The translations under genes and the position numbers were made by a program. From positions 806,001-870,000 of the forward strand of contig OY979728.1 in the NCBI GenBank assembly GCA_963855995.1: a stretch of DNA of 64,000 bases, read 5' to 3'. This stretch comes from Muricea muricata. Taxonomy: Eukaryota; Cnidaria; Anthozoa; Malacalcyonacea; Plexauridae. The notes beneath the pieces are model-generated. The model saw nothing but the letters and a program-made list of their open reading frames with translations, made no database searches and was not told where the DNA came from. Below, one piece after another: positions 502-21,800 of the stretch. The stretch's first letter is position 1. The number at the start of each line of letters is the position of its first letter.

Positions 502-647
502 GGGGTCGGTTGTATAAAAAAGTGCCTTAAGTTAACTATGATATTAGTGGTAATGTCAACCAAGCATAACTTATTTATTACTTAATTACTCGTTAACTTT
601 AAAACAGTGATTGAAAAAGTGATTAAGAGTGTTATACAACCGCCCCT
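502..647. mobile_element. Short TIR element (MITE-like), copy 1
   Basis: The ends are inverted copies of each other: GGGTCGGTTGTATAAAA at the left and TTATACAACCGCCCC at the right. The inside is non-coding. A related copy with the same ends and interior sits at 4940-5076, so the two flank the ankyrin-cGLR gene. The superfamily is not identified. Confidence 0.65.
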
Positions 648-702: not shown

Positions 703-3700
703 TCAGGTTGAATGAAGATGTTTCAAAATTGATCTACACCATCTGATATCATAGCGGTCAATGTCTAAGCGACACTGAAGGAAGAAATGCGGAACAGCTT
801 TCTTTTCAGCAGCTCTTTCTTCTTCTTCGATTTCCTTGAAAGCACTAATAACACGAGAGACACTGCAATAGAAATCCTCTTGTTCTATCACCTTTAAGTG
901 CTGCTCGTCCGAATTCTTGTACAAACTGTTAAGAAGAACTGTTTTCAAATGATACGATGGAATGGGTGCCAGAACATTGGTATGAAGGTCTCGGAGGAAC
1001 TTAAGACATCTGTAAAGTGATAGCTTCTTCTTTGTTAACCGTTTAAGCATTTGCACTTCGATAAGAGAAAACGACGCTCTCCAATGGTTATGCTCGTCAA
1101 GTGCCAAGTATGGAACAACGTGAATTAGCCTATCAGGTAGCTCTTTCCTGGCGTAAGAATTGATGTCGTTCATTTGTTGTTCTTCAGTAATAAGAATCGG
1201 AATTCCGGGCGTTAAGTCGATACTAACCGTTAGACTTTTATACACTTCGCCATCCCAATACACAGTTAGGTTCACTCCAACTTTTGTGTACCGCAAAAAG
1301 CACTGCGAGTTTTTATCGTACTGGCACAAATTGAACCGGATGTTAGGGTATTTTGCTCTGTCCAGTTGCAAAGCTGCTTTCGCCAACAAAAAGGAAATGT
1401 AGTTTTTTAGCGTTGTCGACGACAGGTGACACTTACGATTACAAAGATTTGACCACAATGGTGCACATTCATCACGCAAGATAACCTGTTCGGGACATCT
1501 TAATTTGAATAGAATTAAAAATCTTATTATACCATATACACAGCAAAAAATGAACAACCTGTTCAGGGTTGATGAGAACAGCTTGAACAATGTTTTGCTG
1601 CCCATATTGTTCAGTGTTGTCAACAATATTGTTCAGCATTGTTACGCCTGATTCAAACTTAACAATATTGTTTGATATTGTTAACAGCCCAGAACAGTGT
1701 GGGCAGCAAGACCTTGTTTTCAATCCTGTTCTCACCAACCATGAATTTTCCATTTTTTGCTGTGTCCGACACGTGAATGCAAAAGCGCAAACATGGATTG
1801 CAATGAGGTTAGAAATATAAGACGGAATGGGTAAATTTATAGAAGATGCAATTGGTAAAAGCTAAAATATGCAGTAATGCGTTGTTTTACTCCGAGGTCT
1901 TAAACGTAAAAATTGTAAAATGGCGCCATGCTTATCTAAGGAAATACATTTGGCTTTTTCCTTGCATCTTCTTAACGATAGATGAATTAGAAAAGCATTA
2001 GATATATATCTCGAACTAACGTTGCCAGTGTTACTATAGTACAGTCAAAAGCGCACAAAAAATAAGATCTTCCACTACAATGGAGCGATGTAATGCACAA
2101 TTCGACGTTTACAGCCAAAGTCGGGAGTTACTGTTAAATTTTCGACAATTGAACCTTCGCTTTAAACGCCGAACTCTGTTTATATCGTTTCCGGTTAATA
2201 TACCTCTTATAGCCAAATTTTGTGGTAAAGCATGGGCAGTCTCGTAATTCGACCAGCTCCATAAAAAAATCAAATTCATCTGGAAGCCACATCTTTGTTC
2301 CTTCTGCACTGCTACCAACACAGTGGAGTTCGCTTTTCAACCTCGGATCCATGTCGGAACATTTCGTCGCCAAATCGCTTACTAAACTGAACACTTGTTT
2401 GGCCACTCGGCAATGCTCGTCCTGGCACGGTTCTGTCACGTGAAACTTCAGGCTGCTCTCCTCGCATAAACGCCGTAAAGAAGACTTATTTAATTCTGTT
2501 AAAAAGTTTTCATCTATTTTAGGCATGGCACTTTGGTAAATTTCCCAGTCGCTTGAACCGCTTGCACTGGCTGCAAAATAGAACAGTTTGCTTTCAATCC
2601 TAACAAGTTCTGTCACGTTTTGAAGCATGTTTTTCGTCCATTTTACCCTTGATCCCAAAGGAATGACTTCTGTTTTCTCGCTTCTCGCTTTTAACGAGGG
2701 CATGCTGTTACTTCTTTGCAACTTCGGCCGCATTCCAGAGTGGTTGTCAGGATTATCCAGCATTAAACTCATGAGGAGAAGTCTTTTGCACTCGGAATTG
2801 TTTTCAAGTCTTTCGTCGTCAACACTGCCACATACACATGTATTCTTACTGCGTTGACCGACGGTCAGCGGCCAGAGTAACAATTTTCGAGCGTATTCCC
2901 ATCGCTTGCACAATATCGCAACATCCAGTGGTGTGTTTCCATCACAGTCCGAATTATCCATCATCGCTCCGTGTCTGAGAAAGACCTCCGCAAGGTCCCA
3001 GTTACCTTTGGCTGAAATAAAATGCAGAACAGTTCGATTGTAATAGTCCTGTACATTAACGTTGACTTTGAAGCTTGGATGAAGAATTTCTTCACACCTT
3101 TTTACATCGAAAGAGCGAGAATCTGACAAGAGACGCTTTACTAGTACACAAAGTAATGTGGTGCCTGTAATATCAACACAATCCAACCTCATGCCGAAGT
3201 GGACAAGTTTCATTATCAATAACCATGTCCAACACGAAAAAGACATCTTTTTGTTCTTAAAGAGCCAACATGCCGGGGTCCTTTTAAGAATGTCCTCAGC
3301 GTTTGGATCGGCGCCTTCGACTAACATGAAGTCTACCATTTCAATTGCATTCAATTGAGTCAGAGTTATTTCCTCAAAGTTTAAAAAACATTCATGTAAA
3401 GCTGTTTTGCCACTGTTATTCTGTATATTTGGATTCGCATTAAATTCGTGCAGCAATCTTAAGAAGCCAGGAAGACCATCTTGGTGTGTTATGTTTTCGA
3501 TTTTGTCGAATACACAATGGTACAAAGTATTCCCCTTTTTGTCCTGGGCATTCGGATTTGCGCTGTTTTGTAAAAGAATCCTTGCGGATTCGATGTCATT
3601 CCATGTACAATGATGTAAAGGACTTTTACCTGTTTTATCAACGCAGTTCACATCAAAGCCAATTGAAATCAGATACTTTTGAATGTTATGACATTTGCTA

Positions 3701-4197
3701 ATGATGGCTCTGTGCAGTACGGTTGAGTGCGAAATATAATCTTTCCCGCTCAGATCTACGCCGTTCTTCTTAAGTAGTTTTAAAAGTTCTAAATCGTCGT
3801 CTTCAGAATTTTTGTAGCACCGCAGATGAGGGTTAAGAAGGAAATCTAAACATTCAACACCATCGGATGTCTTCAATTTCAAATCGGCTCCATGGGCCAA
3901 CAACAAGCGAACAATTTGGCACTGCCCAAGCGCAACGGCAAGATGTATAGCCGCATAATTGCCCCATAACTCGTACCTATCTCTTGTGCTCTTATTCAAC
4001 CTCGAGCCCCTTACACAAGTAAAAGCATTAACCACGGCACCATCTTTCAAAAGTTCCTCAACAAGATGAACTGAGCGGAATTTGTGAATAGCGGAACATA
4101 GCATTGGAATTCCCAGATGGTTTTTGAAGTTTTGTGCATTTTGTTTTCGGACTTCGCCTAAGAATTCTTTAGGCGTTTCTGGACGTACCGCAAGCAT
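703..4197 (-). CDS. Ankyrin-repeat cGAS-like (Mab21-type) nucleotidyltransferase
   Basis: Two exons: 4197-2204 and 1498-703. The intron begins GTATATT and ends TTAAG; both sides are phase 2 and the join keeps frame, giving about 929 aa. An in-frame stop at 4261-4263 with no ATG between supports the start. Residues ~30-441 hold about 8-10 ankyrin repeats (for example NTPLDVAILCKRWEYA). A linker follows, then a cGAS/Mab21 nucleotidyltransferase fold from about 515 to the end. Visible active-site elements are GSSAEGT at 628-634, the metal ligands E641 and D643 in DEFDF, and a third acidic residue D759 in VSIDLTPG. A WRASFSLIE motif typical of the Mab21 C-terminal half follows. Family members make cyclic or linear nucleotide second messengers after sensing nucleic acid or other ligands. 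A cGAS-type zinc ribbon is not obvious, so the ligand is unknown. A second possible splice (GCGAAG|GTTCAA to CAG|GTTATC) is also in frame. Confidence 0.85.
1538..1765. repeat. Foldback element inside the ankyrin-cGLR intron
   Basis: The left arm begins ACACAGCAAAAAATG and the right arm ends CATTTTTTGCTGTGT. Between them, further matching inverted blocks (TTGCTGCCCA / TGGGCAGCAA, GATGAGAACAG / CTGTTCTCACC) make an imperfect hairpin of about 228 bp. It lies wholly within the intron, starting about 38 bp from the splice acceptor. Confidence 0.7.
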
Positions 4198-4490
4198 TCT
4201 ACTTGCTTTCTTTCCAAAGTTATGCTGTTTTCGTTTTCCTTTTCCACTGTCTATGTTTATTAATTCAAAGCAGTTCTTTCTGCTCAGTGCTCGTTTGTAT
4301 TAGACATAAATCATTAGAGCTTCTTTTACAAGCACTTGGACTCGCTTTCTGTATGACAAGTAATCAGATTTTCTAAATGAAAATGATGAAACTATCTCTA
4401 TTTTTATAATTCGAAACACATGAATCAAAGTTAAGATGTTTTTGACGTACCGGAAGCAATATTAGACGTGGAATTCATTGTTTTCAATAT

Positions 4491-4721
4491 CTCTTCCTGA
4501 TCCATGAATTATTATGTGTTTTCAGTCAAGTCTGAGGGTCAAAATCTTTCCTTGTTGTACAAGGTGTCTCTTCCTGATCCATGAATTATTATGTGTTTTC
4601 AGTCAAGTCTGAGGGTCAAAATCTTTCCTTGTTGTACAAGGTGTCTCTTCCTGATCCATGAATTATTACGTGTTTTCAGTCAAGTCTGAGGGTCAAAATC
4701 TTTCCTTGTTGTACAAGGTGT
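4491..4721. repeat. Tandem repeat, three 77-bp units
   Basis: Three nearly identical units start at 4491, 4568 and 4645, each beginning CTCTTCCTGATCCATGAATT and ending TACAAGGTGT. Only one base change is evident between units. The array sits just upstream of the ankyrin-cGLR gene's 5' end (the gene reads leftward). Confidence 0.95.
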
Positions 4722-4939
4722 CCCAAAAAAGCGTGTGTCACTATAGAAAATATATAATTGTTATTTAACGCTTTTAAACGAGCCTGGTAAGACACCACGG
4801 GAGTCGGTTGTATATTCAAAAACTGTTTCATTCCGATGGCTTTTATACTTGCCTTTCTGGCAAAACTAGTTATAAATGACCTGGAAAATAGGGCACGGTA
4901 CTTTGCGGCACGGATACAATTTCATTGCATGGTTTTACT

Positions 4940-5076
4940 GGGGCCGGTTGTATAAAAAAAGGAATTAAAGTTAACTGGGGTTAGTGGAAGCGTCAACCAA
5001 TCAGAACCACGTATTTTGTACTTAACTACAAAACAGTGATTAAAAAAGTGATCAAGAGTTTTAAACAACCGGCCCT
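4940..5076. mobile_element. Short TIR element (MITE-like), copy 2
   Basis: The ends are GGGGCCGGTTGTATAAAA and TTAAACAACCGGCCC, and the interior matches the 502-647 element (CAGTGATTAAAAAAGTGAT). A further partial end, AGTCGGTTGTATA, is seen near 4802. Confidence 0.7.
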
Positions 5077-5174
5077 TAATTTGCATAGTTTGTTAACTCA
5101 AGATCTTGGTATGCTGACATCTTTTCATTGCATTTTGATTTTATGTTTGCCCATGTTTATTTATATTTATAAAT

Positions 5175-5327: not shown

Positions 5328-5665
5328 ACACATTTCGAAAACATGCGAGCTTCTTTTATGCTCAAGAAAAAAACTTGTGCGTGTGAATGGTCAAATAGCA
5401 TGCACTCCTTAATTTCTTAATTCAACTTAAATGTAGGAAATAATCGAGATGTTTGTGTATAATTTTGACTTGGCAATCAAGTCATGAAAGACACTCAAAA
5501 CAAGACAAGACAATCTTTATTTGTGCCAACAATTTACGTAAATTAAAATATATGTAAAAAATAATTAAAACTAGTAATTATATGATCATGCAATAAAAAA
5601 AAACCCCGGTGAGAATCATTTGAAAACAATGATAACCACTTTGAAGACGTGGCCGAACGCGAGAA

Positions 5666-7090
5666 ATGAAGACGAGAAATGTAGTTGTTGTTCTGTTGTG
5701 CCTCGTTCTCAGCTTGTATTATACCTCGCTATACATTCGTTTCGATAATGGTAAAACAAGTGCTCCACCGTCACCTTCAGATAATCTCGATGTGTTCAAT
5801 GTATTCATGACTGTCGCAGACCTTTCTGGAGATAAACAAGCTGTTATTAATATAGCGAAGAATGGAAAATATGCTTTACCGGGCGAAAACTACACGTTCG
5901 ATTACAAGGTATACTCTACATCTTTTAAAGCACTACAACGAGTTAAAAACATAACTCGGACACCGATGAAACCGGTCGAACCCACACAATGGGATGGTTA
6001 TTTGAAAATACACGAGTACAGCGAGGAACTGTCAAAAGTAATGCGCGTATTTTTGGCGGTGCCCAACTATCCTGGCTTTCAGAAAATGAGATTAACAACG
6101 CCACGTTTTAACAGAGGCGGTGCGAGAAGCACAGGACCAACGTCATTTGATGCTGTGTACAATTTTGACGAACTGAACCAAGTTTACTCTAAAAATGGCT
6201 ACCCACCGCTTGTTTTGGACAAGGAATATGATGACGCGTGCAAGCACTTGAAACCAATCGGTGTCCTTGCATTCGTGCCACCTAACGGTGGACGCTATGG
6301 GAAGGATATAAGAGAGAAGATTTATGGGAAAAATGGAAAACGATGGATTAATTGTGATAGTTCCTTCAGTGGCAATGCAACCGATCGTAAATTCCTTTGC
6401 ACCACTTTTGATTTCGACATATCAGTTTTGAGACAGTCGGTGCTCAAGGACGTAAAATGTATCGAAGTTCAAAAGTGGGGAGATCGCGGTGGCTTGTATG
6501 GCAAGAGTGGACCAAATGGTTTAAGTCCCGACGATATATTTCATTATTTTCTTAACCCTAGTGATGTAATACTAAACGAAGTAGACAGGTTCACTACTCA
6601 GTACCTTAAGAGACCGTACGTAGCTGTTCATATTCGAGCAGGTCACATCAACGTACTTCCAACGACTGTGAAGCGTTGTTTTATGGTGGCAATGCGGTTA
6701 ATAGATTCTTTAAAAAGGCAAAGAGGGGTAAAGTCGGTATACATATCAACTGACATGAATAAATATGGTTGCCGTGGTGCTTATGTGCGTGGATACGAGG
6801 AATATTTGGCTAACATAAGTGGAGCTGTCCGGTACAACCCGAAAACGACAGAGGAGCTAAAAGACATTTCGCCCACCATGATATCGGTCACAAACGTATT
6901 ACTCCTTAGTAAAAGCGATCACCTCATTGCGATGGGTACTGGTAGCTTTCATGGTTACGTAATGGGTCAATTTCTCAAGGAACACTTTGAAAAAGATCCA
7001 AAAACGTGGTCCCTTACAAGAATGTGCGAGAATGCAAGAGCGAGAGGAATGACCAGGCCTAGTGAAGATTACTCCAAATGGGAAACCTAA
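5666..7090 (+). CDS. O-fucosyltransferase-like type II membrane protein, paralogue 1
   Basis: Intronless, 474 aa. An N-terminal signal anchor (residues ~7-25, VVVLLCLVLSLYYTSLYI) preceded by basic residues predicts a Golgi type II protein with a lumenal catalytic domain. Several N-glycosylation sequons are present (NYT, NIT, NAT, NIS). The C-terminal half looks like the O-FucT superfamily: RPYVAVHIRAGH with R324 in the HxR nucleotide-sugar motif, then YISTDMNKYG, and near the end LLLSKSDHLIAMGTGSFHG, matching the usual sugar-nucleotide pocket order. Substrate and linkage cannot be read from sequence, and a more distant GT-B fucosyltransferase is possible. This copy differs from the other three at the active-site loop (AVHIRAGH rather than AIHIRANH), at YLKRPY rather than YLERPY, and at TTEEL rather than TTGQL. 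It is first in a four-gene array. Confidence 0.65.
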   Translation: MKTRNVVVVLLCLVLSLYYTSLYIRFDNGKTSAPPSPSDNLDVFNVFMTVADLSGDKQAVINIAKNGKYALPGENYTFDYKVYSTSFKALQRVKNITRTPMKPVEPTQWDGYLKIHEYSEELSKVMRVFLAVPNYPGFQKMRLTTPRFNRGGARSTGPTSFDAVYNFDELNQVYSKNGYPPLVLDKEYDDACKHLKPIGVLAFVPPNGGRYGKDIREKIYGKNGKRWINCDSSFSGNATDRKFLCTTFDFDISVLRQSVLKDVKCIEVQKWGDRGGLYGKSGPNGLSPDDIFHYFLNPSDVILNEVDRFTTQYLKRPYVAVHIRAGHINVLPTTVKRCFMVAMRLIDSLKRQRGVKSVYISTDMNKYGCRGAYVRGYEEYLANISGAVRYNPKTTEELKDISPTMISVTNVLLLSKSDHLIAMGTGSFHGYVMGQFLKEHFEKDPKTWSLTRMCENARARGMTRPSEDYSKWET

Positions 7091-7139
7091 TAGTCTAATT
7101 TCACCCAAAATTAGAAATAAGCAACATTATTTTTTCCCC

Positions 7140-7530
7140 GTCCGGTTTTTCACTGAATCCTGTAATCCGATTGGCTGACGAGCGGTCCGGTTTTTCCGTA
7201 TACGGACCGCTGAACCGGACCGCTAACGGTTTTGCCTAGCGCTTACCGTATATGGTTTGTTTTTTACCATTTATGGCAACTTTGTTTCAAATCTCGCGTG
7301 TGCAAAATTGAATGGCGTGTGCAATTTCAAAAATGTTTTCAGTAAAAAATTGAAATGGCAAAGCCGCATTGCTTCGAGTTTTATTGTTTTGAGCGAAAAA
7401 ATAAATCTGTTATTTACCGGCAGCGTCGGTCCGTATGGGGAGAATCCCCCCCGGGCTCGGGCCGTTTTTAAGAGCTCGGGCACAGTTTCTCCCCATACGG
7501 ACCTCCTATCCGGTAAATAACACATATGTA
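7140..7530. repeat. Foldback sequences downstream of paralogue 1
   Basis: Two palindromes sit here. One, at about 7185-7225, is built on GGTCCGGTT / AACCGGACC around TCCGTATACGGA. The other, at about 7400-7525, pairs TTATTTACCGG...GGTCCGTATGGGGAGAA with TTCTCCCCATACGGACC...CCGGTAAATAA. No gene is seen. Both look like mobile-element hairpins absent from the other intergenic units. Confidence 0.65.
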
Positions 7531-7620
7531 TTTCGCATGTTTTGGTTTGCGAAATACAAAAGAGAGCTCAATGACATATGACAGAGCGAAATTTATAATC
7601 GTGCAAAATACCTCAAAAGC

Positions 7621-7667
7621 TTACCACTACAGTCTGTTTCATCCAGAAGGAATCTTCAGGTGGCAGA
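7621..7667 (-). ncRNA. Hammerhead ribozyme (type I), best-preserved copy
   Basis: Reading the minus strand: the stem I 5' half TGCCAC; core CTGAAGA (fits C-U-G-A-N-G-A); stem II TTCC-loop TTCT-GGAT with a T:T mismatch next to the core; GAAA; a 3-bp stem III (A-CA, loop GAC, TG-T); cleavage triplet GTA; then GTGGTA closing stem I with six pairs, one a G:T wobble. All core positions are present. Tiny stem III hammerheads of this kind are known from Penelope-like elements. Stem II is weak, so activity is uncertain. Confidence 0.55.
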
Positions 7668-8112
7668 CAAATTTCGAAAACATACGACCTTCTTTTATGC
7701 TCAAGGAGGAAACGTGGGCGCGTGGGTGTTTAAATAGCATGCATTCCTTTCTTTGTTTAGGTTTTTTACCGAAAATCTATTTTTGTGTTGGCAGACCGAA
7801 ACTATTTCCGATCTTTTATTTAAGCAAGCAATTGTTTTTTTCTTTCAAAATACTAATTTTTTCCTCCACACATAAATTACATCTTTTGGATCCTCCCGTG
7901 TACGAAATAGACTTTTATTATTGACCATTTTATGGTGAAATCTGTTTTGTTTTCCCTTAAGTGCCAAACGTGTTTCGAAAGTTACGTTTCGTTTGAACAT
8001 TTTTTGTGTGTGAAAGATTTAATATGATTCCTGTATCGCTTTTTGAATGTGTTTGAAGTCATGCCAATATGGTGCTTTGTGTCCTTTGTGTTGCCTGTAT
8101 TATTAATTAATA

Positions 8113-8788
8113 CAGTAGAACCCTGCTATCTCGAACTCGCTTAACTCGAACTCTCCCCTAACTCGAACTAACTCCAATTTCCTCTGGACTTGGTATTACA
8201 ATTTATAGTAATTTACTCCGGGTAACTCGAACTCGCTTAACTCGAGCAATTTTCACTCTCCCTTGGTCAAATTAAATTTCCCCGGTTAACTCGAACTCTA
8301 ATCTCGAAACGCGGATCTGAAAACCTGAAATGAAACTTAAATTTCATAATTCGAAAGCGTAAATTCGATTTCAACAACAACAGTTTAATCAATTTATACA
8401 TACATGCAGTATAGCTTCAAACATCCATAACCTAAAATTTGCTTCCGAGCAAAATATGAGACAAAGTCAGTAGCGAAGGAGCATCAAATAATATTTGGAA
8501 GAAATACAAATGGATTGACGTTAGAACTGAACCTTAGCCTTAGAGATTCGTTCTTAGTTTTCTTGGTTTTAGTAAAGCACGGGTCTTTGTAAGTATTAGA
8601 TAAAACTACAAATATCTGTAAATTACACCGTAGTAGTTCACATTGTAAATGAACAATAAAACTACTATAACTTATTAATTATTAACCTAATAAACGAAAT
8701 TTAACGCCAACCTTGCTAACTCGAACCCCCGCTAACTCGAACAGTTTTTCGTTTCCCTAGAGAGTTCGAGTTAGCGTGGTTTTTACTG
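8113..8788. mobile_element. Tigger/pogo-like non-autonomous DNA transposon
   Basis: The ends are inverted: CAGTAGAACCCTGCTATCTC at the left and a complementary end at 8761-8788 (GAGTTCGAGTTAGC...TTTTTACTG). A TA dinucleotide flanks each side (8111-8112, 8789-8790), the target-site duplication of Tc1/mariner-type elements. The motif AACTCGAAC recurs near both ends. No transposase frame is present, so it is internally deleted. It lies between paralogues 1 and 2 only. Confidence 0.85.
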
Positions 8789-8826
8789 TATATACATATA
8801 TCATCCTGCAAAATACCTCAAAAAAC

Positions 8827-8875
8827 TTACCACTACAGTCTGTTTCATCCATGAGCAGGAATCTTCAAGTAGTAG
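8827..8875 (-). ncRNA. Degenerate hammerhead-ribozyme-like unit
   Basis: Same repeat as 7621-7667, minus strand. Stem I and stem III (CA-GAC-TG, GTA site) are kept, but the core's first C is T (TTGAAGA) and the stem II loop is about four bases longer. Probably inactive. Confidence 0.4.
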
Positions 8876-9209
8876 ACAAATTTCGAAAACATGCGAGCTT
8901 CTTTTATGCTCAAGAAAGAAACTTGTGCGTGTGAATGGCCAAATAGCATGTACTCCTTAATTTCTTAATTCAACTTAAATGTAGAAAATAATCGAGAGGT
9001 TCGTGTATAATTTTGACTTGGCAATCAAATCATGAAAGACACTCAAATCAAGACAAGACAATCTTTATTTGTGCCAACAATTTACATAAATTAAAATATA
9101 TACAAAAAATAATTAAAACTAGTAATTATGATCATGCAATAAAAAACCTCCGACGAGAATCATTTGAAAACAATGATACCCACTCAGTAGACGTGGCCAA
9201 ACGCGAGAA

Positions 9210-10631
9210 ATGAATAGAAATGTAGTTGTTATTCTGTTGTGCCTCGTTCTCAGCTGGTATTATACCTCGCTATACATTCGTTTCGATAATGGTAAAACAA
9301 GTGCTCCACCGTCACCTTCAGATAATCTCGATGTGTTCAATGTATTCATGACTGTCGCAGATCTTTCTGGAGATAAACAAGCTGTTATTAATATAGCGAA
9401 GAATGGAAAATATGCATTACCGGGCGAAAACTACACGTTCGACTACAAGGTATACTCTACATCTTTTAAAGCACTACAACGAGTTAAAAACATAACTCAG
9501 ACACCGATGAAACCGGTCGAACCCACACAATGGGATGGTTATTTGAAAATACACCAGTACAGCGAGGAACTGTCAAAAGTAATGCGCGTATTTTTGGCGG
9601 TGCCCAACTATCCTGGCTTTCAGAAAATGAAATTAGCAACGCCACGTTTTAGCAAAGGCGGTGCGAGAAGCACAGGACCAACGTCATTTGATGCTGTGTA
9701 CAATTTTGACGAACTGAACCAAGTTTACTCTAAAAATGGCTACCCACCGCTTGTTTTGGACAAGGAATATGATGACGTGTGCAAACACTTGAAGCCAATC
9801 GGTTTCCTTGCATTCGTGCCACCTAACGGTGGACGCTATGGGAAGGATATAAGAGAGAAGATTTATGGGAAAAATGGAAAACGATGGATTAATTGTGATA
9901 GTTTCTTCAGTGGCAATGCAACCGATCGTAAATTCCTTTGCACCACTTTTGATTTCGACATATCAGTTTTGAGACAGTCGGTGCTCAAGGACGTAAAATG
10001 TATCGAAGTCCAAAAGTGGGGGGATCGCGGTGGCTTGTATGGCAAGAGTGGACCAAATGGTTTAAGTCCCGACGATATATTTCATTATTTTCTTGACCCT
10101 AGTGATGTAATACTAAACGAAGTAGACAGGTTCACCACACAATACCTTGAGAGACCGTACGTAGCTATTCATATTCGAGCAAATCACATCAACGTACTTC
10201 CAACGACTGTGAAGCGTTGTTTTGTGGTTGCAATGCGGTTAATAGATGCTTTAAAAAGGCAAAGAGGGGTAAAGTCGGTATACATATCAACTGACATGAA
10301 TAAATATGGTTGCCGTGGTGCTTATGTGCGTGGATACGAGGAATATTTGGCTAACATAAGTGGAGCTGTCCGGTACAACCCGAAAACGACAGGGCAACTA
10401 AAAGACATTTCGCCCACCATGATATCGGTCACAAACGTATTACTCCTTAGTAAAAGCGATCACCTCATTGCGATGGGTACTGGTAGCTTTCATGGTTACG
10501 TAATGGGTCAATTTCTCAAGAAACACTTTGAAAAAGATCCAAAAACGTGGTCCCTTACAAGAATGTGCGAGAATGCAAGAGCGAGAGGAATGACCAGGCC
10601 TAGTGAAGATTACTCCAAATGGGAAACCTAA
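9210..10631 (+). CDS. O-fucosyltransferase-like type II membrane protein, paralogue 2
   Basis: Intronless, 473 aa, nearly identical to the other three copies. Signal anchor at the N-terminus (MNRNVVVILLCLVLSWYYTS, the shortest basic head of the four), the same sequons, and the same O-FucT-like motifs: AIHIRANH, YISTDMNKYG and GTGSFHG. Particular changes are a serine-lysine pair (RFSKGG) where others have RFN(R)xG, LDPSDV rather than LNPSDV, and FLKKHF near the end. The upstream 500 bp resemble those of paralogue 1 (both carry AGACAAGACAATCTTTATTT), whereas paralogues 3 and 4 share a different upstream block. Function is inferred from the superfamily only. Confidence 0.65.
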   Translation: MNRNVVVILLCLVLSWYYTSLYIRFDNGKTSAPPSPSDNLDVFNVFMTVADLSGDKQAVINIAKNGKYALPGENYTFDYKVYSTSFKALQRVKNITQTPMKPVEPTQWDGYLKIHQYSEELSKVMRVFLAVPNYPGFQKMKLATPRFSKGGARSTGPTSFDAVYNFDELNQVYSKNGYPPLVLDKEYDDVCKHLKPIGFLAFVPPNGGRYGKDIREKIYGKNGKRWINCDSFFSGNATDRKFLCTTFDFDISVLRQSVLKDVKCIEVQKWGDRGGLYGKSGPNGLSPDDIFHYFLDPSDVILNEVDRFTTQYLERPYVAIHIRANHINVLPTTVKRCFVVAMRLIDALKRQRGVKSVYISTDMNKYGCRGAYVRGYEEYLANISGAVRYNPKTTGQLKDISPTMISVTNVLLLSKSDHLIAMGTGSFHGYVMGQFLKKHFEKDPKTWSLTRMCENARARGMTRPSEDYSKWET

Positions 10632-12201
10632 TAGTCTAATTTCACAGTATTTCGCATGGTAAAGTACACAAACTGGTTCGCCATACGTTAGTAATTGACC
10701 GTAACGAAAAAATGGATGTAAACATGGTTACATTTAATTGCTAGTTTTGCAATTATTTATATTTCTAGTTCGTTTGTTATATATCATAGCCGACCTAAAA
10801 ATGCGGGGGGAGGGGGCTTCTGTAAATACCTTAATTCCCCGTATTTTTGGGCCGCCTATGACTTAATCACTTATTTAGTTTTTGTAGTTTTGTTTATTCT
10901 TGTTTGCCATTACTTAAGTTTTGCATGGTTGCACTTAATTCCTAATTTTATTATATTATTTATTTTTAGCCACTAGTTTTGCTATTATTTATATTAAGGA
11001 AATGAAACGCATGAAACATTTCCGGGGCGTTTGCGAACGTTTTTTTTTGCGGGGGGCTTTTCTTTAAGTCTTGAAAGCGCGGGAAAAATTTCTTTCAAAA
11101 AATTCAACTGTTTTCAAAGATTTTGAGGTTAGTAACAGATTTTTTTGTTTAAATCAACTCCTGCGTTTTACTGATATACTTTTATTGCCTATAAATCATG
11201 TTAAAAACTTTTTTCTTCATCTTTTGGAGGGACTTGTGCTTCTGCCGTGGCTCATAGTGTTTACAACGAGCAAATAACTAAGGCTTTTGGTAAAGTTTGT
11301 ATGCAAGACTATTCGGGCTCTTTTTGTCGAATATATTTCCAATAATCAAAGGTAAATGATATTTTTTATAATCTCTACATATTTAGTCGTGCGTGCTTTT
11401 GTCTTCAATATCGTGTTGTTTATATTGGCCGCGAATGTTAACGCCATGTACTTGTGCATGTCCAGAATTTGCAGTTATATGATGCTAGTTATAGCACTTC
11501 GATTTAAAATGAAATATTATTGATAAAATGAAATTATAGATACACTTACAAATGATATAGGTATTTGGTACATATATATATATGCAGAACTGTAAACTGT
11601 TTTGAACTGTAAACTTTACAATAAAAATAACAATTTTATGGTAATTATTAATACTCGCTTCGCAGTCTGCGTTGACATTACATGTGTGCATTTTATACCT
11701 GTCTTTGGTATCCTTCAAAGAGTTGACCTCATCGTGCTTGCTGATGGCAAATGGACTATGTATTGAACAACACAACAGCAACATTGGAGCATACTTCTTA
11801 TATGCTTTAAGTAGAAATCTCATCCATGTTGATTGTGCTGCAACCCATGGGGCCACCCACATGTATTTTAACGCTTGAGACTGAGTAGTTAATTGTTGCA
11901 TGCGTGTTTAGTTGTCTTTGTCTGCATACTTGAACGCCGATCGATGTCCAATTATTCTGTGCAAGATTCAATATTTTCTTGCATTCCTTTGTGTAAATGA
12001 AATCTGAGATCAAGAAATGTAAATTCAACTTACGTGTAGAAAATAATCGATATATTTGTGTATAATTTTGATTTTTCTACAAAAAATCAATTTTATTTAA
12101 TGTATGCATATCTATGCAGGTATGCTGCAATAGAAACACAAACGGCGAGAAGCATTTGAAAACAATGATAACCACTCAATAGAAGTGGCCAAACGCGGAA
12201 A

Positions 12202-13629
12202 ATGAAGACGAGGAGAAGTCTAGTTGTTGTTCTGTTGTGCATCGTTCTCAGCTTGTATTATACCTCGCTATACATTCGTTCCGATAATGGTAAAACAAGT
12301 GCTCCACCGTCACCTTCAGACAATCTTGATGTGTTCAATGTATTCATGACTGTCGCAGACCTTTCTGGAGATAAACAAGCTGTTATTAATATAGCGAAGC
12401 ATGGAAAATATGCTTTACCGGGCGAAAACTACACGTTCGACTACAAGGTGTACTCTACATCTTTTAAAGCACTGCAACGAGTTAAAAACATAACTGGGAC
12501 ACCGATGAAACTGGTCGAACCCACACAATGGGATGGTTATTTGAAAATACACGAGTACAGCGAGGAACTGTCAAAAGTAATGCGCGTATTTTTGGCGGTG
12601 CCCAACTATCCTGGCTTTCAGAAAATGAGATTAACAACGCCACGTTTTAACAGAAGCGGTGCGAGAAGCACAGGACCAACGTCATTTGATGCTGTGTACA
12701 ATTTTGACGAACTGAACCAAGTTTACTCTAAAAATGGCTACCCACCGCTTGTTTTGGACAAGGAATATGATGACGTGTGCAAGCACTTGAAACCGATCGG
12801 TGTCCTTGCATTCGTGCCACCTAACGGTGGACGCTACGGGAAGGATATAAGAGAGAAGATTTATGGGAAAAATGGAAAACGATGGATCAATTGTGATAGT
12901 TCCTTCAGTGGCAATGCAACCGATCGTAAATTCCTTTGCACCACTTTTGATTTCGACATATCAGTTTTGAGACAGTCGGTGCTCAAGGACGTAAAATGTA
13001 TCGAAGTCCAAAAGTGGGGGGATCGCGGTGGCTTGTATGGCAAGAGTGGACCAAATGGTTTAAGTCCCGACGATATTTTTCATTATTTTCTTAACCCTAG
13101 TGATGTAATACTAAACGAAGTAGACAGGTTCACCACACAATACCTTGAGAGACCGTACGTAGCTATTCATATTCGAGCAAATCACATCAACGTACTTCCA
13201 ACGACTGTGAAGCGTTGTTTTGTGGTGGCAATGCGGTTAATAGATGCTTTAAAAAGGCAAAGAGGGGTAAAGTCGGTATACATATCAACTGACATGAATA
13301 AATATGGTTGCCGTGGTGCTTATGTGCGTGGATACGAGGAATATTTGGCTAACATAAGTGGAGCTGTCCGGTACAACCCGAAAACGACAGGGCAACTAAA
13401 AGACATTTCGCCCACCATGATATCGGTCACAAACGTATTACTCCTTAGTAAAAGCGATCACCTCATTGCGATGGGTACTGGTAGCTTTCATGGTTACGTA
13501 ATGGGTCAATTTCTCAAGGAACACTTTGAAAAAGATCCAAAAACGTGGTCCCTTACAAGAATGTGCGAGAATGCAAGAGCGAGAGGAATGACCAGGCCTA
13601 GTGAAGATTACTCCAAATGGGAAACCTAA
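12202..13629 (+). CDS. O-fucosyltransferase-like type II membrane protein, paralogue 3
   Basis: Intronless, 475 aa. The N-terminus is MKTRRSLVVVLLCIVLSLYY, a basic head then a signal anchor of about 20 residues. The lumenal domain has the same sequons as its siblings, then AIHIRANH, YISTDMNKYG and a terminal GTGSFHG stretch. It is closest to paralogue 4 at the start of the protein and in its flanks. Copy-specific residues include KHGKY instead of KNGKY, TGTPMKLVEP instead of TPMKPVEP, and RFNRSG. The start is fixed by the shared sequence right up to CGCGGAAAATGAAG in paralogues 3 and 4. Expected in the Golgi or ER lumen; acceptor unknown. Confidence 0.65.
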   Translation: MKTRRSLVVVLLCIVLSLYYTSLYIRSDNGKTSAPPSPSDNLDVFNVFMTVADLSGDKQAVINIAKHGKYALPGENYTFDYKVYSTSFKALQRVKNITGTPMKLVEPTQWDGYLKIHEYSEELSKVMRVFLAVPNYPGFQKMRLTTPRFNRSGARSTGPTSFDAVYNFDELNQVYSKNGYPPLVLDKEYDDVCKHLKPIGVLAFVPPNGGRYGKDIREKIYGKNGKRWINCDSSFSGNATDRKFLCTTFDFDISVLRQSVLKDVKCIEVQKWGDRGGLYGKSGPNGLSPDDIFHYFLNPSDVILNEVDRFTTQYLERPYVAIHIRANHINVLPTTVKRCFVVAMRLIDALKRQRGVKSVYISTDMNKYGCRGAYVRGYEEYLANISGAVRYNPKTTGQLKDISPTMISVTNVLLLSKSDHLIAMGTGSFHGYVMGQFLKEHFEKDPKTWSLTRMCENARARGMTRPSEDYSKWET

Positions 13630-15186
13630 TAGTCTAATTTCACAGTATTTCGCATGGTAAAGTACACAAACTGGTTCGCCATACGTTAGTAATTGACCGT
13701 AACGAAAAAATGGATGTAAACATGGTTACATTTAATTGCTAGTTTTGCAATTATTTATATTTCTAGTTCGTTTGTTATATATCATAGCCGACCTAAAAAT
13801 GCGGGGGGAGGGGGCTTCTGTAAATACCTTAATTCCCCGTATTTTTGGGCCGCCTATGACTTAATCACTTATTTAGTTTTTGTAGTTTTGTTTATTCTTG
13901 TTTGCCATTACTTACCAGTTTTGCATGGTTGCACTTAATTCCTAATTTTATTATATTATTTATTTTTAGCCACTAGTTTTGCTATTATTTATATTAAGGA
14001 AATGAAACGCATGAAACATTTCCGGGGCGTTTGCGAACGTTTTTTTTTGAGGGGGCTTTTCTTTAAGTCTTGAAAGCGCGGGAAAAATTTCTTTCAAAAA
14101 CTTCAACTGTTTTCAAAGATTTTGAGGTTAGTAACAGACACCCTTGTCTAAACCAACTCCTGTGTTTTACTGATATACTTTTATTGCCTAAAAACCACGT
14201 TAAAAAACTTTTTTCTTCATGTTTTGAAGGGCCTTGTGTTTCTGCCATGGCTCATAGTGTTTACAACGAGCAAATAACTAAGGCTTTTGGTAAAGTTTGT
14301 ATGCCAGACTATTGGGGCTCTTTTTGTCGAATATATTTCCAATAATCAAAGATAAATGATATTTTTTATAATCTCTACGTATTTAGTCGTGCGCGCTTTT
14401 GTCTTCAATATCGTGTTGTTTATTTTGGCCGCGAATATTAACGCCATGTACTTGTGCATGTCCAGAATTTGCAGTTATATGATGCTAGTTATAGCACTTC
14501 GATTTAAAATGAAATATTATTGATAAAATGAAATTATAGATACACTTACAAATGATATAGGTATTTGGTACATATATACATGCAGAACTGTAAACTGTTT
14601 TGAACTGTAAACTTTACAATAAAAATAACAATTTTATGGTAATTATTAATACTCGCTTCACAGTCTGCGTTGACATTACATGTGTGCATTTTATACCGGT
14701 CTTTGGTATCCTTCAAAGAGTTGACCTCATCGTGCTTGCTGATGGCAAATGGACTATGTATTGAACAAAACAACAGCGACATTGGAGCATGCTTCTTATA
14801 TGCTTTAAGTAGAAATCTCATCCATGTTGATTGTGCTGCAACCCATGGGGCCACCCACATGTATTGCAACGCTTGAGACTGGGTAGTTAATTTTTGCATG
14901 TGTAATTAGTTGTCTTCCTCTGCATACTTGAATGCCGATGTCCAATTATTCTGTGAAAGATCCAATATTTTCTTGGATTCCTTTGTGTAAATGAAATCTG
15001 AGATCAAGAAATGTAAATTCAACTTAAATAATCGATATATTTGTGTATAATTTTGATTTTTCTACGAATATTCAATTTTATTTAATGTATGCATGTCTAT
15101 GCAGGTATGCTGCAATAGAAACACAAACGGCGAGAAGCATTTGAAAACAATGATAACCACTCTGTAGACGTGGCCAAACGCGGAAA

Positions 15187-16617
15187 ATGAAGACGAGGAG
15201 AAGTCTAGTTGTTGTTCTGTTGTGCCTCGTTCTCAGCTTGTATATATCGTCGCTATATATTCGTTCCGATAATGGTAAAACAAATGCTCCACCGTCACCT
15301 TCAGATAATCTCGATGTGTTCAATGTATTCACGAATGTCGCAGACCTTTCTGGAGACAAACAAGCTGTTATTAATATAGCGAAGAATGGAAAATATGCTT
15401 TACCGGGTGAAAACTACACCTTCGACTACAAGGTATACTCTACATCTTTTAAAGCACTACAACGAGTTAAAAACATAACTCAGACACCGATGAAACCGGT
15501 CGAACCCACACAATGGGATGGTTATTTGAAAATACACCAGTACAGCGAGGAACTGTCAAAAGTAATGCGCGTATTTTTGGCGGTGCCCAACTATCCTGGC
15601 TTTCAGAAAATGCGATTAACAACGCCACGTTTTAACAGAGGCGGTGCGAGAAGCACAGGACCAACGTCATTTGATGCTGTGTACAATTTTGACGAACTGA
15701 ACCAAGTTTACTCTAAAAATGGCTACCCACCGCTTGTTTTGGACAAGGAATATGATGACGTGTGCAAGCACTTGAAACCGATCGGTGTCCTTGCATTCGT
15801 GCCACCTAACGGTGGACGCTACGGGAAGGATATAAGAGAGAAGATTTATGGGAAAAATGGAAAACGATGGATTAATTGTGATAGTTCCTTCAGTGGCAAT
15901 GCAACCGATCGTAAATTCCTTTGCACCACTTTTGATTTCGACATATCAGTTTTGAGACAGTCGGTGCTCAAAGACGTAAAATGTATCGAAGTCCAATTGT
16001 GGGGAGATCGCGGTGGCTTGTATGGCAAGAGTGGACCAAATGGTTTAAGTCCCGACGATATTTTTCATTATTTTCTTAACCCTAGTGATGTAATATTAAA
16101 CGAAGTAAACAGGTTCACTACTCAGTACCTTGAGAGACCGTACGTAGCTATTCATATTCGAGCAAATCACATCAACGTACTTCCAACGACTGTGAAGCGA
16201 TGTTTTGTGGTGGCAATGCGGTTAATAGATGCTTTAAAAAGGCAAAAAGGGGTAAAGTCGGTATACATATCAACTGACATGAATAAATATGGTTGCCGTG
16301 GTGCTTATGTGCGTGGATACGAGGAATATTTGGCTAACATAAGTGGAGCTGTCCGGTACAACCCGAAAACGACAGGGCAGCTAAAAGACATTTCGCCCAC
16401 CATGATATCGGTCACAAACGTATTACTCCTTAGTAAAAGCGATCACCTCATTGCGATGGGTACTGGTAGCTTTCATGGTTACGTAATGGGTCAATTTGTC
16501 AAGGAACACTTTGAAAAAGATCCAAAAACGTGGTCCCTTACAAGAATGTGCGAGAATGCAAGAGCGAGAGGAATGACCAGGCCTAGTGAAGATTACTCCA
16601 AATGGGAAACCTATTAG
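15187..16617 (+). CDS. O-fucosyltransferase-like type II membrane protein, paralogue 4
   Basis: Intronless, 476 aa, last of the array. The N-terminus is MKTRRSLVVVLLCLVLSLYI with a membrane anchor. Differences from the others: VFTNVADL for VFMTVADL, EVQLWGDRGG for EVQKWGDRGG, NEVNRF for NEVDRF, QFVKEHF for QFLKEHF, and one extra C-terminal tyrosine because the shared AACCTAATAG is AACCTATTAG here. Motifs AIHIRANH and GTGSFHG are intact, so the copy should be functional if the others are. Downstream spacer homology is interrupted at about 16.7 kb. Confidence 0.65.
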   Translation: MKTRRSLVVVLLCLVLSLYISSLYIRSDNGKTNAPPSPSDNLDVFNVFTNVADLSGDKQAVINIAKNGKYALPGENYTFDYKVYSTSFKALQRVKNITQTPMKPVEPTQWDGYLKIHQYSEELSKVMRVFLAVPNYPGFQKMRLTTPRFNRGGARSTGPTSFDAVYNFDELNQVYSKNGYPPLVLDKEYDDVCKHLKPIGVLAFVPPNGGRYGKDIREKIYGKNGKRWINCDSSFSGNATDRKFLCTTFDFDISVLRQSVLKDVKCIEVQLWGDRGGLYGKSGPNGLSPDDIFHYFLNPSDVILNEVNRFTTQYLERPYVAIHIRANHINVLPTTVKRCFVVAMRLIDALKRQKGVKSVYISTDMNKYGCRGAYVRGYEEYLANISGAVRYNPKTTGQLKDISPTMISVTNVLLLSKSDHLIAMGTGSFHGYVMGQFVKEHFEKDPKTWSLTRMCENARARGMTRPSEDYSKWETY

Positions 16618-18863
16618 TCTAATTTTACAGTATTTCGCATGGTAAAGTACACAAACTACTGGTTACCGATACGTTAGTAATCAACCATAACGAAAAAATT
16701 GCAACATGTACAATTTACTGGGATGCATTTAGGGTATCAAGCTAAAGCTATTGAAAACAAAATTGCCAAGAAAAACACCTAATAAGGACCAAAATCTTTA
16801 ACAAAACAAAGAAAATAACCTTCCTCTTGTATTTGTCATTCCAAAAACGTCAATTTGCTTTTTAAACGAATTTCGAACGCAATATATTCTGGAATTTCTG
16901 GTAAAATGTAGTATCTCGGCAAGCTTTTTCATTGCGGCCAATTAATGATTAATGGAGGGAAGGGTCTGGTGAGGGTCAAGATAATGTAATTTACTGACAA
17001 CCAGTTGATATGAAAACACGGAAACGTACTGGCACTAGTTGTCAAATAGAAATCTATTTTTCGATCCAAATTATCAAATTTCCCATGAAATATAATTTAC
17101 TTTGTTTGAAAATTTCTGGCAGACTTATAATTAACAATTAGTCGCCGAAGGTGTAGTGATTATTGGTAAATATTTACCGAGACGAAGTCGAAGTGAATAT
17201 AACAAATATTTACCATAATCACTGAGCCTGAGACGAATAATTGTTTTGGTATAATTTCTTTAGTAAAATTCACGTGTATAAAATGCACTGTCGTCTTTTA
17301 TGAATACAGTGTACTTAAGGTATGTGCAGACGATCTATTACCTTAAGATACTTTAACATCAAAGGTTGTTTGTATTCTTTGAGTTTGTATCAATGCAATT
17401 TTTCTCCATTTGCTAATTTTGGCAAAAGTATAATACATCAAAACTACTCTCATTGGCGGCCATTTTGAAAAAATGCCAACTAGTAAAAACTGTAAAAACT
17501 AGTATATAATGTCTCATATTTACTGGTCAGCGGCAACCAATCAAAATGCTTGAGAGTCATTATTTACTAAAGAAATTATACTAATTTTCTTTATTAAAGA
17601 CAGTTACTAAGTTCCAACAAGTTTCACAAAGGAAAACAAGAGATATAAGTGGTTTAACAACAGCAAAATGATATGGTTTCTATTTGGTAGCTAGTTCCAG
17701 GCCTTTTACTCACGGTCAGATCAGCTAGAAGATAGTTGTAGTGGATGTAAACATGATTACATTTAGTTGTTATTTTTGCCATTATTTATATTTCTAGTTG
17801 GTATGGTATATTGACTACATTTAGTATTCGTACGTTCACTTATTAATCACATATTTAGTTTTTGTAGTTTTGTCCATACTAGTTTGCCATTGCTCACCAG
17901 TTTTGCGTGGTTGCACCGAATTGCTAATTTTGTTATTATTTATTTTTAGCCACTAGCTTTGCTATTATTTTTTAGAATTTTTACACAAGTGAACATGAGA
18001 AATCCGACGATGTGATTGGTCCAATATGACGTGACATTCCTTTATATTCACCTACAGGTGAATATAACAGTAAAAACACGTTTACAAAATGGTGACTAGC
18101 CGCCGTTTTGTACAAACTACGGACAAAGAAATAAACAAAATTAAAATAACTTGTGTAAAAATACTAAAACAATTACTCGCCTTCGGCGAATAATTGTTAA
18201 ATATTAAGAAAATAAAAATGTCATGAAACATTTTCGGGGCGTTGAGGAATTTTTTTTTTTGGGGGGGGGGCTTTTCTTTTAAATCTCAAAAGCGCGGGAA
18301 AAATTTCTTTCAGAAAATTCAGCTGTTTTTAAAGATTTTGACGAGATTTTGAGGTTAGTAATAGATTTTTTTGTTTAAGCCCATTCCTGTGTTTTACTGA
18401 TGCACTTTTTATTGCCTAAAACTGCCACGTTAAAAAACTTTTTGTTTAATTAGTTTATCTCTAGGATTGAATACGTTGTTTTGGCCGCCATGTTAATGTT
18501 CTTGCTAAAATTGGTTTTTTGTTTTAAAATGTCATAAGGTATCTAAGAAAAAACATACTTCGAAGAATGTCTGTTACTCTGTCTTGTCTTGTTTAAAAGC
18601 TTGAACCTTGATTAAATTGTCTGCAAGTAATGTTTTTATAAGATGTTCATTGGAGATATTTTGCCCTGATGGGAAAATATCGATTTGAAATTCCAGTAAC
18701 CTTACCGTGCTTCTTACCTAGCACACGTTTTATATTTTTGTGATTTTGTCATATACTATATGTGTAAGTGCAGTTTTATTTGTGTGTATTTGATTTTTAA
18801 AGTGGTATTTTTTTTATCATTGCGCAATATTTAAATCACTAGTTGCGTTTATAAATATACATA
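16618..18863. other. Gene-free spacer with decayed array unit and foldback inserts
   Basis: The first ~90 bp match the spacers after paralogues 2 and 3. The match resumes around 17735 (GGATGTAAACATGATTACAT) and runs, degraded, to about 18440. Between and inside lie inserts with hairpin ends: about 17105-17600 (TTTAGTAAA...TTTACTAAAGAAATTATAC) and about 17985-18200 (TTTTTACACAAGT...ACTTGTGTAAAAA), the latter followed by CTCGCCTTCGGCGAATAATTG. A poly-T/poly-G run is at about 18250-18270. No gene is seen. The last 400 bp would hold the glucosylceramidase promoter. Confidence 0.6.
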
Positions 18864-21800
18864 ATGGAGTCACCGAAGCATTTTATTTTGTCATTTCTTG
18901 TTATTTTGCATTCCGTGAGGACAGTTTCAAGTGTGCACGTTTTCAACTACACTCTTTGCAAACGAAAAGACTTTAGTTCAGATTCTTTCGTATGCGTTTG
19001 CTCGGAAACCTATTGTGATGGATTTAATAACAAGGCATCAAAACCTTTGTCAAGTAACGAGTTTGCAGTATACACATCCTCAAAGGATGGCGCTAGATTT
19101 GAGCTGAAAATCGGCCAAATCTCGCCGCATTTTAATAAGAGAGAAGACGCTGTTTTTTTGCACGTCGACGAAACTGTACAATACCAAGAGATCGTTGGGT
19201 TTGGTGGAGCTTTTACAGGTAAACTGTTTAATTTAATTAAATTACCTCGTACGTAAATTACTATCCAGTATAATTTTAAAGTTTATCAGCAAAGGTATCA
19301 ACCAGTTCTATAAAACTGTTCTTTCTAGAGTAGAGGCCCAGAAAAGATCATCTCTTGTTGATCCATTCTTATATGAAAAACCTAAGCAACTTAATTACTT
19401 TTTGTATAGCTATTCTTATAAGAGGGCATCTTACCTATTTAATTCTGCACATTGGGACAATTAACTAAAGTAACGTTTATGTACGGGTACTTCAGGAGTC
19501 TTCTCTAACTCTGGACCAGAATTGTCAAAACGAATGAGCATACTAAAATGTGGTGGCCTTTTCAAGTCTTCTGTGTTTTATAAATTATGAATATATAAAC
19601 ATTAATTCATGTAGATGCTGCAACGATAAACATCAAAAACTTGAGCAATATTCTGCAAGAAAGTCTTATTAATTCTTACTACTCTCCAAATGGCATCGAA
19701 TACACTCTTGGTCGAATACCAATGGCAAGTTGTGATTTCTCAACCAGAATCTACACCTATGATGATGTCCCAGGAGATTTCAACCTGACCAATTTTAAGC
19801 TGGCCCCAGAAGATGTGTCATTCAAAATTCCTGTAATTAAGGCTGCTGTAAGCCAAAGCAAACGACAAGTCAAATTTTTTGCCAGTCCATGGTCGGCTCC
19901 GGCATGGCTGAAAAACAGCAACAGTACTGTAGGGGGTGAATTGATGGGTTCAGCTGGTGATAAATATCATAAAACATGGGCAAAATACTTTGTACTGTTT
20001 CTTGAAGCTTATGAAAAGAATGGAGTCAAAGTGCAGGGAGTTACTGTACAGAATGAACCAATCACAGGGTATATACCAGGGTAAGAGACTGTTGCATGCT
20101 TTCAGGGGTATAACCAAACCCCTATTTTTGGGAGGGGGCAAAAAGGTGCTAGGGTAGACAACACCTTAGGAAAATAGAAAATTCTAAGGCTTCTGGAATG
20201 CAATTTCTCCTTCTAGAGGAATATAACGAGAAACAATTTACAATAAGAACTGAATCCATATTTTCGTCAAAGTTTTTTCCGGTAATGCCCTGGGTATGAG
20301 GTTGAGTTTTCTTGTAGTGTGGTCTCCTTTTACTTTGACTCCCCCCCCCCCCCCCTCCAACTTTGTTCAGGATTTGAATGTTTAAAAAACAAATTGTCAA
20401 ACGATTGGGAGGCAGCTCCCCCTTCCCGTAACTACATCCCTGGATGTTATATCAAAATTTATCATTTAATGGGGAATACAGTGATAACCAGAAGTAGATC
20501 CAGCATGATCTGGGGAGGGAGGGGGGTGCTCTGCAAGCTCTATACAATACTCCAGTTCTGTTAGTCTAATAGTCTTAGTCATGTGTGTAGCATGACCTTT
20601 GAAATACAGGAAGAATATTTGCACAATAGATGGATCATAATACATCGTTGATTACTTTCAGCTACACATTTCAAAGTATGGGTTTCACTGGTTCAACCGA
20701 GAGAGACTTTGTGAAGGGTGACCTGGGACCAGCCTTAGAAAAGGCTGGATATGGTGATATAAAGTTGATGATATTTGATGATAACAGAATAACCCTACCT
20801 GGTTTTACAGAGACAGTTTTAAGTGATAAAGATGCAATGAAGTATGTTTCTGGTGTAGCTGTTCATTGGTATGAAGATAGCTTTCTGCCAGCATCTTTTC
20901 TTACTCATCTACATAACAAGTAAGTCCACTAAAGCTTCTGTAACATCGGAGGTTTGAATCTGCTCGCCTTAAGCCTCCTATAGTTTCCCTCGGGAAAACT
21001 TTTTTCCCAAGGGAGAAAAAGAGAGAATAAAAGAGAGAATAGTCTGAGGACAGAGTTCTTATCAAAAGTTATATATTAGTTTTCGTCAAGTAATCTAGTT
21101 TTCCACCCAGAGGGAGAAAAGAAAGAATGGTCTGGGGACAGAGTTCTCACCAAAAGTTAATGGAGTTGTTTCCAAGTATTCTAGTTTTCCTAAGGTGGGG
21201 GGGGGGGAGTGAGCTGGAGACAGAATTTGCTCTTACCATCAGTTGTTATTTTTCTTCAAGAAAACTTTTTTCATAACTTTTTCCTCCCCCTGAGGGAGGA
21301 AAAGAAAGAATACACCAAAACGTTGTTGGTTTAGTCCAAGTATTCTAATTTCCCTCCCAGAAAGGAAAGAAAAATTGAACAACGGGCAGAACTTTTACTA
21401 AAAGTATTCCACAATCTAGTTTTTTTTCAGAGAGGAAACTAGTCACTCTTGTAAAACCTACTTTACTAGTACAACCAGGGGGTGGGGCCGAAATTGATCA
21501 CACACTGTTTGCCCACTTCATTTCACGGGCTTCACATCACCAAAAAACCAAAGCATCTCCTCATATTGACTCTAATTGATAGCTACCCAGATACTTTTGT
21601 ACTCGCTACGGAGGCGTGTACTGGCTTTAGTCCACTGGAGACACGCGGTCCCGTACTTGGGAGTTGGGAACGAGGAGAAAGATACAGTCATAGTGTTATC
21701 GAAGTAAGTGCAATGACAATTGAAACAAATTACGATTCGGTTCAATATGATTGATATTGATTTCCTGTATTGATAATTCTAGAAAAAATCTCAAAGCTTC

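Follow-up and report, generated by a model that had tools for sequence, protein, structure and literature searches.

A gene on the minus strand of the analysed window, a stretch of 64,000 nucleotides from the octocoral Muricea muricata (C13:806001-870000), is predicted to encode an array of ankyrin repeats fused to a nucleotidyltransferase of the cGAS/Mab-21 superfamily. We lean, by a modest degree, towards reading the protein as a cGAS-like signalling enzyme that would use two-metal catalysis to make a messenger read by STING, and whose protein-binding ankyrin module would recruit or switch the enzyme. This reading builds on a fusion contained in one open frame, on catalytic residues recognised by alignment, on their conservation in a paralog and on STING genes in the same genome.

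The gene model joins exon 1 (4197-2204) across a predicted intron (2203-1499) to exon 2 (1498-703), which ends with the stop codon, and yields a protein of 929 aa, as the initial annotation had proposed, with E, D and D at residues 641, 643 and 759 (Table 1). The fusion itself does not depend on splicing, since one frame encodes both the ankyrin repeats and the GS...EFD motif; this longest open frame (4299-2134, minus strand, 721 codons) runs through the ankyrin array into the nucleotidyltransferase, of which it covers the first half with GSSAEGT and EFD. Exon 2 is read in the frame of the open reading frame 1632-703, and open reading is uninterrupted in both exons. For the position of the junction, all 22 splice variants with open reading were scored against the intronless paralog described below, and 2204/1498 ranked first with a score of 836, followed by 2155/1485 with 832; an earlier subset of ten of the 22 variants had given the same winner and the same runner-up. 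As the second junction scores so close to the first, 2204/1498 is favoured as the exact exon junction rather than proved. A simple, generic donor matrix also places 2204 first among six candidate donors (4.66), ahead of 2291 (2.06) and 2155 (0.22). The Pfam family Mab-21, searched with five of the 22 variants, is undecided on the junction, since 2254/1485 gains slightly more bits (24.0 versus 23.7 for 2204/1498) but covers profile positions 92-196 only. D759 is retained in all 22 variants, and only donor 2291 removes E641 and D643; its variants have the lowest scores against the paralog (734-750).

Table 1. Features of the ankyrin-nucleotidyltransferase gene, in window coordinates
Feature	Position	Strand	Basis
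Ankyrin-repeat array, about 11 repeats, residues 27-444	2866..4119	-	Pfam; count and limits by eye
Linker, residues 445-560, poorly conserved	2518..2865	-	Alignment with paralog
First half of the cGAS/Mab-21 nucleotidyltransferase, end of exon 1	2204..2517	-	Pfam and profile alignment
G-S activation-loop motif GSSAEGT, residues 628-634	2296..2316	-	Sequence; conservation in paralog
E641-F642-D643, predicted first two metal-binding carboxylates	2269..2277	-	Alignment with cGAS E225, D227
Intron, 705 nt, GT-AG, missing from paralog	1499..2203	-	Splice model, predicted
Repetitive, near-palindromic MITE-like element, intron bases 439-667	1537..1765	-	Genome-wide matches
Exon 2: rest of the nucleotidyltransferase core, C-terminal helix-bundle region, stop codon	703..1498	-	Mab-21 and Mab-21_C matches
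D759 codon, predicted third metal-binding carboxylate	1216..1218	-	cGAS D319 in profile alignment
R805 codon, matches cGAS R376	1078..1080	-	Profile alignment
Y847 codon, matches cGAS Y436	952..954	-	Profile alignment
AATAAA polyadenylation-signal-like hexamer, about 125 nt past the stop	574..579	-	Read from sequence by eye

The same architecture is found in a paralog on another contig (L024:2146-5016, plus strand, contig C2), an intronless frame of 956 aa with the same start. It was detected in a search of the genome (453 Mb in 74 contigs, E cut-offs of 0.001 and 0.01) that gave at least one close relative outside the window, the counts being lower bounds. The alignment of the two proteins starts at the initial methionine and extends almost to the C-terminal end; of 906 aligned residues 398 are identical (44%), with identity at 46.7% for the ankyrin region, 23.4% for the linker (25 of 107 residues) and 47.2% for the nucleotidyltransferase. 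The ankyrin families of Pfam are recognised clearly in the joined 929-aa protein (Ank_2 1e-31, Ank 4.1e-26, Ank_5 1.3e-21, Ank_4 1.3e-19), and the paralog matches Ank_2 (5.4e-36) and, below the cut-off, Mab-21 (2.5e-4), with no match to Mab-21_C at E 0.01. The paralog and the shared frame bear directly on the possibility that two adjacent genes, or a decayed copy, have been read as one. Such an artefact would fit the weak pyrimidine tract of the splice acceptor and the rank of donor 2204, which the generic matrix puts no higher than tenth among the 161 GT sites from 4290 to 1400, with stronger-looking GT sites within exon 1; however, the ankyrin repeats and the half of the domain with GS...EFD share a frame, both exons are fully open and the intronless paralog encodes the whole architecture, and we regard an artefact as very improbable. 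The possibility of two separate genes, which the initial annotation had itself named as a ground for giving up the fusion, is thereby countered.

The intron may have been lost from the paralog by retrocopy or gained by the window gene. The element within it has at least 87 matching rows in the genome including the window copy, many of them pairs of opposite strands at a single place (of 2025 candidates, 40 were scored). Other repeats lie close by, namely three tandem 77-nt units that match at 99% and lie immediately 5' of the gene (window 4490-4722), and two similar GGTTGTATAAAAA...AACAACC elements that flank it (window about 499-650 and 4803-5080) and look MITE-like by eye. Further along, the window holds four tandem genes on the plus strand (5645-16617; 481-486 codons from stop to stop) whose proteins are 93.2-96.5% identical and whose intervening DNA is duplicated as well; the two that were scanned show weak matches to O-FucT (GDP-fucose O-fucosyltransferase) below the cut-off. 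An exon of the glycosyl hydrolase family 30 (glucosylceramidase-like) follows at 19599-20084 (plus strand, E 1.8e-57), and the frame 18855-19256, which has no Pfam match, may be the first exon of that gene. The frame 29740-30417 (plus strand) contains a zinc knuckle and an LLVDTGA protease-like motif and resembles a retrotransposon gag by eye, with no Pfam match at E 0.01.

By homology over the nucleotidyltransferase core, the protein is a member of the cGAS/Mab-21 superfamily. Scanned alone (369 aa), the nucleotidyltransferase part matches Pfam Mab-21 with E=5.6e-5 and 23.7 bits over profile positions 3-196 of 197, and Mab-21_C with E=0.002 and 18.7 bits, both of which fall below the cut-offs of the two families (24.1 bits); the matches are weaker with the whole 929 aa (Mab-21 4.8e-4, 20.7 bits; Mab-21_C 0.054, 14.1 bits). 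None of four control sequences, consisting of the reversed sequence and three of eight shuffles made, matched Mab-21. A profile of the two paralogs was compared by hhalign with a second profile, made up of cGAS from human and mouse, cGLR1 (8gjy), Mab21L1 and L001, a Mab21L1-like protein of this genome, and aligned with 98.1% probability, an E-value of 7.6e-14 and a score of 101.8 over 273 columns, spanning residues 34 to 346 of the 369-aa domain, while the best of 100 column shuffles reached E 0.006 and a score of 28.1. As a single sequence the domain gave no hhalign match to human cGAS; the top match of the single-sequence PDB search was Mab21L1 (E 0.0026), with MB21D2 at E 0.5, and part of exon 2 found MB21D2 alone (E 0.32). 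A two-row profile that included human cGAS was set aside; it recovered only cGAS relatives that human cGAS finds by itself. The NCBIfam scan gave no matches, nor did the Rfam scan of the window at gathering scores, and among viral contigs scanned with a 449-aa nucleotidyltransferase part one stretch fitted a pattern and none encoded a relative.

In the profile alignment E641, D643, D759 and T761 fall on E225, D227, D319 and T321 of human cGAS, and R805, S807, S809 and Y847 on R376, S378, S380 and Y436. We take the cGAS carboxylates to be metal ligands and R376 and Y436 to contact the bases. Both paralogs have the three carboxylates together with the counterparts of R376 and Y436. The GSSAEGT motif and the three acidic positions listed in the initial annotation can all be read in the sequence, the carboxylates aligned with the cGAS triad. 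The third aspartate did not line up in pairwise and three-way MAFFT alignments with human cGAS and Mab21L1; D759 aligns only after the paralog and more relatives are added, and its placement therefore rests on the profile alignment and on the local SIDLTP/SVDITL pattern. GS and the first two carboxylates sit in the stretch most conserved between the paralogs, with 22 of 25 residues identical at 626-650 (88%) versus 47% in the domain and 23% in the linker. The surroundings of the third carboxylate (residues 750-768; 9 of 19 identical, 47.4%) are no better conserved than the domain as a whole. Single-sequence structure models of the separate exons have an unusably low mean pLDDT, 38.2 for exon 1 and 32.9 for exon 2.

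Residues 628-644, at the position of the cGLR motif of Li et al., read GSSAEGTKMWLPDEFDF. In the accessible text of that study, the stricter form of the motif has Q or T before GS (Li et al., 2023; PMC9980059), where the window protein has V and the paralog T, and the search motif expects the third acidic residue 50-90 residues past the second. The distance is 115 residues in the window protein, 108 in the paralog and 91 in human cGAS by the same counting rule, so that by the letter of that curation the protein is not a cGLR of the listed type. Written as a regular expression, the strict motif does not match human cGAS itself, and the non-match of the window protein was therefore not counted. 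The long spacing, the divergent branch on which the protein lies and Mab21L1 as its best single-sequence match in the PDB would all suit a Mab21-like protein that makes no messenger and has a developmental or scaffolding role or is a pseudoenzyme. We consider this improbable, as GS and the third acidic residue are kept in both paralogs and missing from the aligned Mab21L1, and as GS and the first two carboxylates lie where the paralogs have diverged least. Given the fusion, the complete triad and the kinship with cGAS, cGLRs and Mab21, an active nucleotide second-messenger synthase is plausible, and a protein that homology places in the cGAS/Mab-21 superfamily may well work like a cGLR.

The initial annotation had also suggested that the ankyrin repeats may act as sensor or adaptor in place of the zinc ribbon. 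The ribbon is indeed missing, with no zinc-binding insertion between the SFS..E and SYH.KT motifs in the profile alignment. The insertion is, however, absent from Mab21L1 as well, and cGLR1 (8gjy) has a short loop there with no cysteine cluster, so that the absence is uninformative about the ankyrin array, and the idea of a replacement specific to this protein is not supported. The predicted pI of the nucleotidyltransferase domain is 7.6 (8.0 in the paralog) versus 9.1 for human cGAS computed alike, and that of the whole protein is 8.2 (6.5 in the paralog). Nucleic-acid-sensing cGLRs are given a pI above 8.5 in the accessible text of Li et al., and non-nucleic-acid ligands are suggested for acidic ones (PMC9980059); the lower values found here lean weakly away from nucleic-acid sensing, the published values having come from another pI program. 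This concerns the view that the protein is a nucleic-acid-sensing cGLR, in which dsRNA or dsDNA would bind the nucleotidyltransferase and the ankyrin array would merely localise the protein or recruit downstream proteins. The known activating ligands of cGLRs, with which the window protein has the domain in common, are dsDNA and dsRNA in the same accessible text (PMC9980059), but the pI values of the domain and of the whole proteins and the lack of a zinc insertion weigh against such a sensor, which we judge unlikely.

In the reading we prefer, the protein would be a cGAS-like signalling enzyme of the animal, probably cytosolic, whose C-terminal domain would bind two metal ions via E641, D643 and D759 and link nucleotides to form a second messenger, for which a cyclic dinucleotide is the likeliest candidate; one of the STING proteins of the host might then read this messenger. 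The ankyrin array at the N-terminus would serve as a protein-binding module whose partner could be a microbial protein, a host adaptor or a scaffold, and by analogy the binding of this partner may place or switch on the enzyme; the role of the array as partner sensor or recruiter is what we infer from such analogy. Candidate readers are present in the genome, with at least seven STING_LBD places, all seven above the cut-off, and the one STING frame examined with Pfam carries the STING membrane domain as well. A STING with a long repetitive C-terminal extension was observed in a single 844-codon frame (L029:199-2733, minus strand, G000:C4), in which STING_TM and STING_LBD alone are recognised at E 0.001.

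At least 22 Mab-21 places were counted in the genome in addition to the two ankyrin-fused genes. Among 20 Mab-21 loci, open frames of 330 aa or more occur in 16, and 13 of the 16 carry a GS...acidic motif by a loose pattern; in the three loci scanned with Pfam (L003, L013, L017) Mab-21 domains only were found, with no ankyrin. Ten of the 22 places are clustered at G000:C2:19.72-20.30 Mb; their frames are stand-alone and cGLR-like, and several are nearly identical to one another. In a tree of 22 rows, which leaves out L005, L009, L012 and L020 as they have no 330-aa open frame, the two ankyrin proteins group together with full support on a long branch of 2.93 changes per column; the pair has no supported neighbour in this tree, and the program flags a risk of long-branch attraction. 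With a branch of this length, the biochemistry may differ. The pair might represent a separate divergent ankyrin-cGLR lineage, in which the array would be the receptor for a protein, either an effector of a pathogen or a guarded factor of the host, and this protein in place of a nucleic acid would trigger synthesis, a version to which we assign a rather low probability. For the preferred reading, the two detected ankyrin-cGLR paralogs beside several STING genes offer a tractable place to ask about ankyrin gating, and the paralog, being intronless, is easy to clone.

Compared with known systems, the protein is like human and mouse cGAS in having GS, the three carboxylates, the residues matching R376 and Y436 and the SFS..E and SYH.KT motifs. 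It is unlike them in lacking the zinc insertion, in its added ankyrin array and in its lower predicted pI, and it has 24 more residues between the second and third carboxylates than human cGAS. With Mab21L1 and MB21D2, its best single-sequence PDB matches, it shares the overall domain, whereas in the profile alignment Mab21L1 has neither GS nor the third acidic residue; we know of no ankyrin array in either of the two. A Crassostrea gigas protein that combines DED-TRADD-N, Mab-21/cGAS and TPRs likewise joins a cGAS-like domain to protein-interaction modules, though with other partner domains, as far as the accessible text describes it (eLife 2021, PMC8195603). The accessible text of Li et al. 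(2023; PMC9980059) counts 3,020 animal cGLRs, 87% of which stand alone and some of which carry ankyrin or tetratricopeptide repeats, and reports active cGLRs across many animals and ankyrin fusions that include those of the stony coral Stylophora pistillata. The likeness to the S. pistillata proteins, drawn from their description there, extends to the fusion of nucleotidyltransferase and ankyrin repeats and to the many cGLR and several STING genes per genome, while the carboxylate spacing is longer here than in the published motif (PMC9980059). In the literature searched, made up mostly of open-access papers, no further paper on a fusion of ankyrin with cGLR, cGAS or Mab21 was recognised and no ligand for an ankyrin-fused cGLR was found. 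For the ligand, this agrees with the initial annotation, which had called open what such a fusion senses; the type of fusion had been described before by Li et al. (2023; PMC9980059, accessible text). Taken together, the ankyrin-cGLR architecture is already known in corals and other animals, and the Muricea gene is a well-supported additional example of it and no new kind of system.
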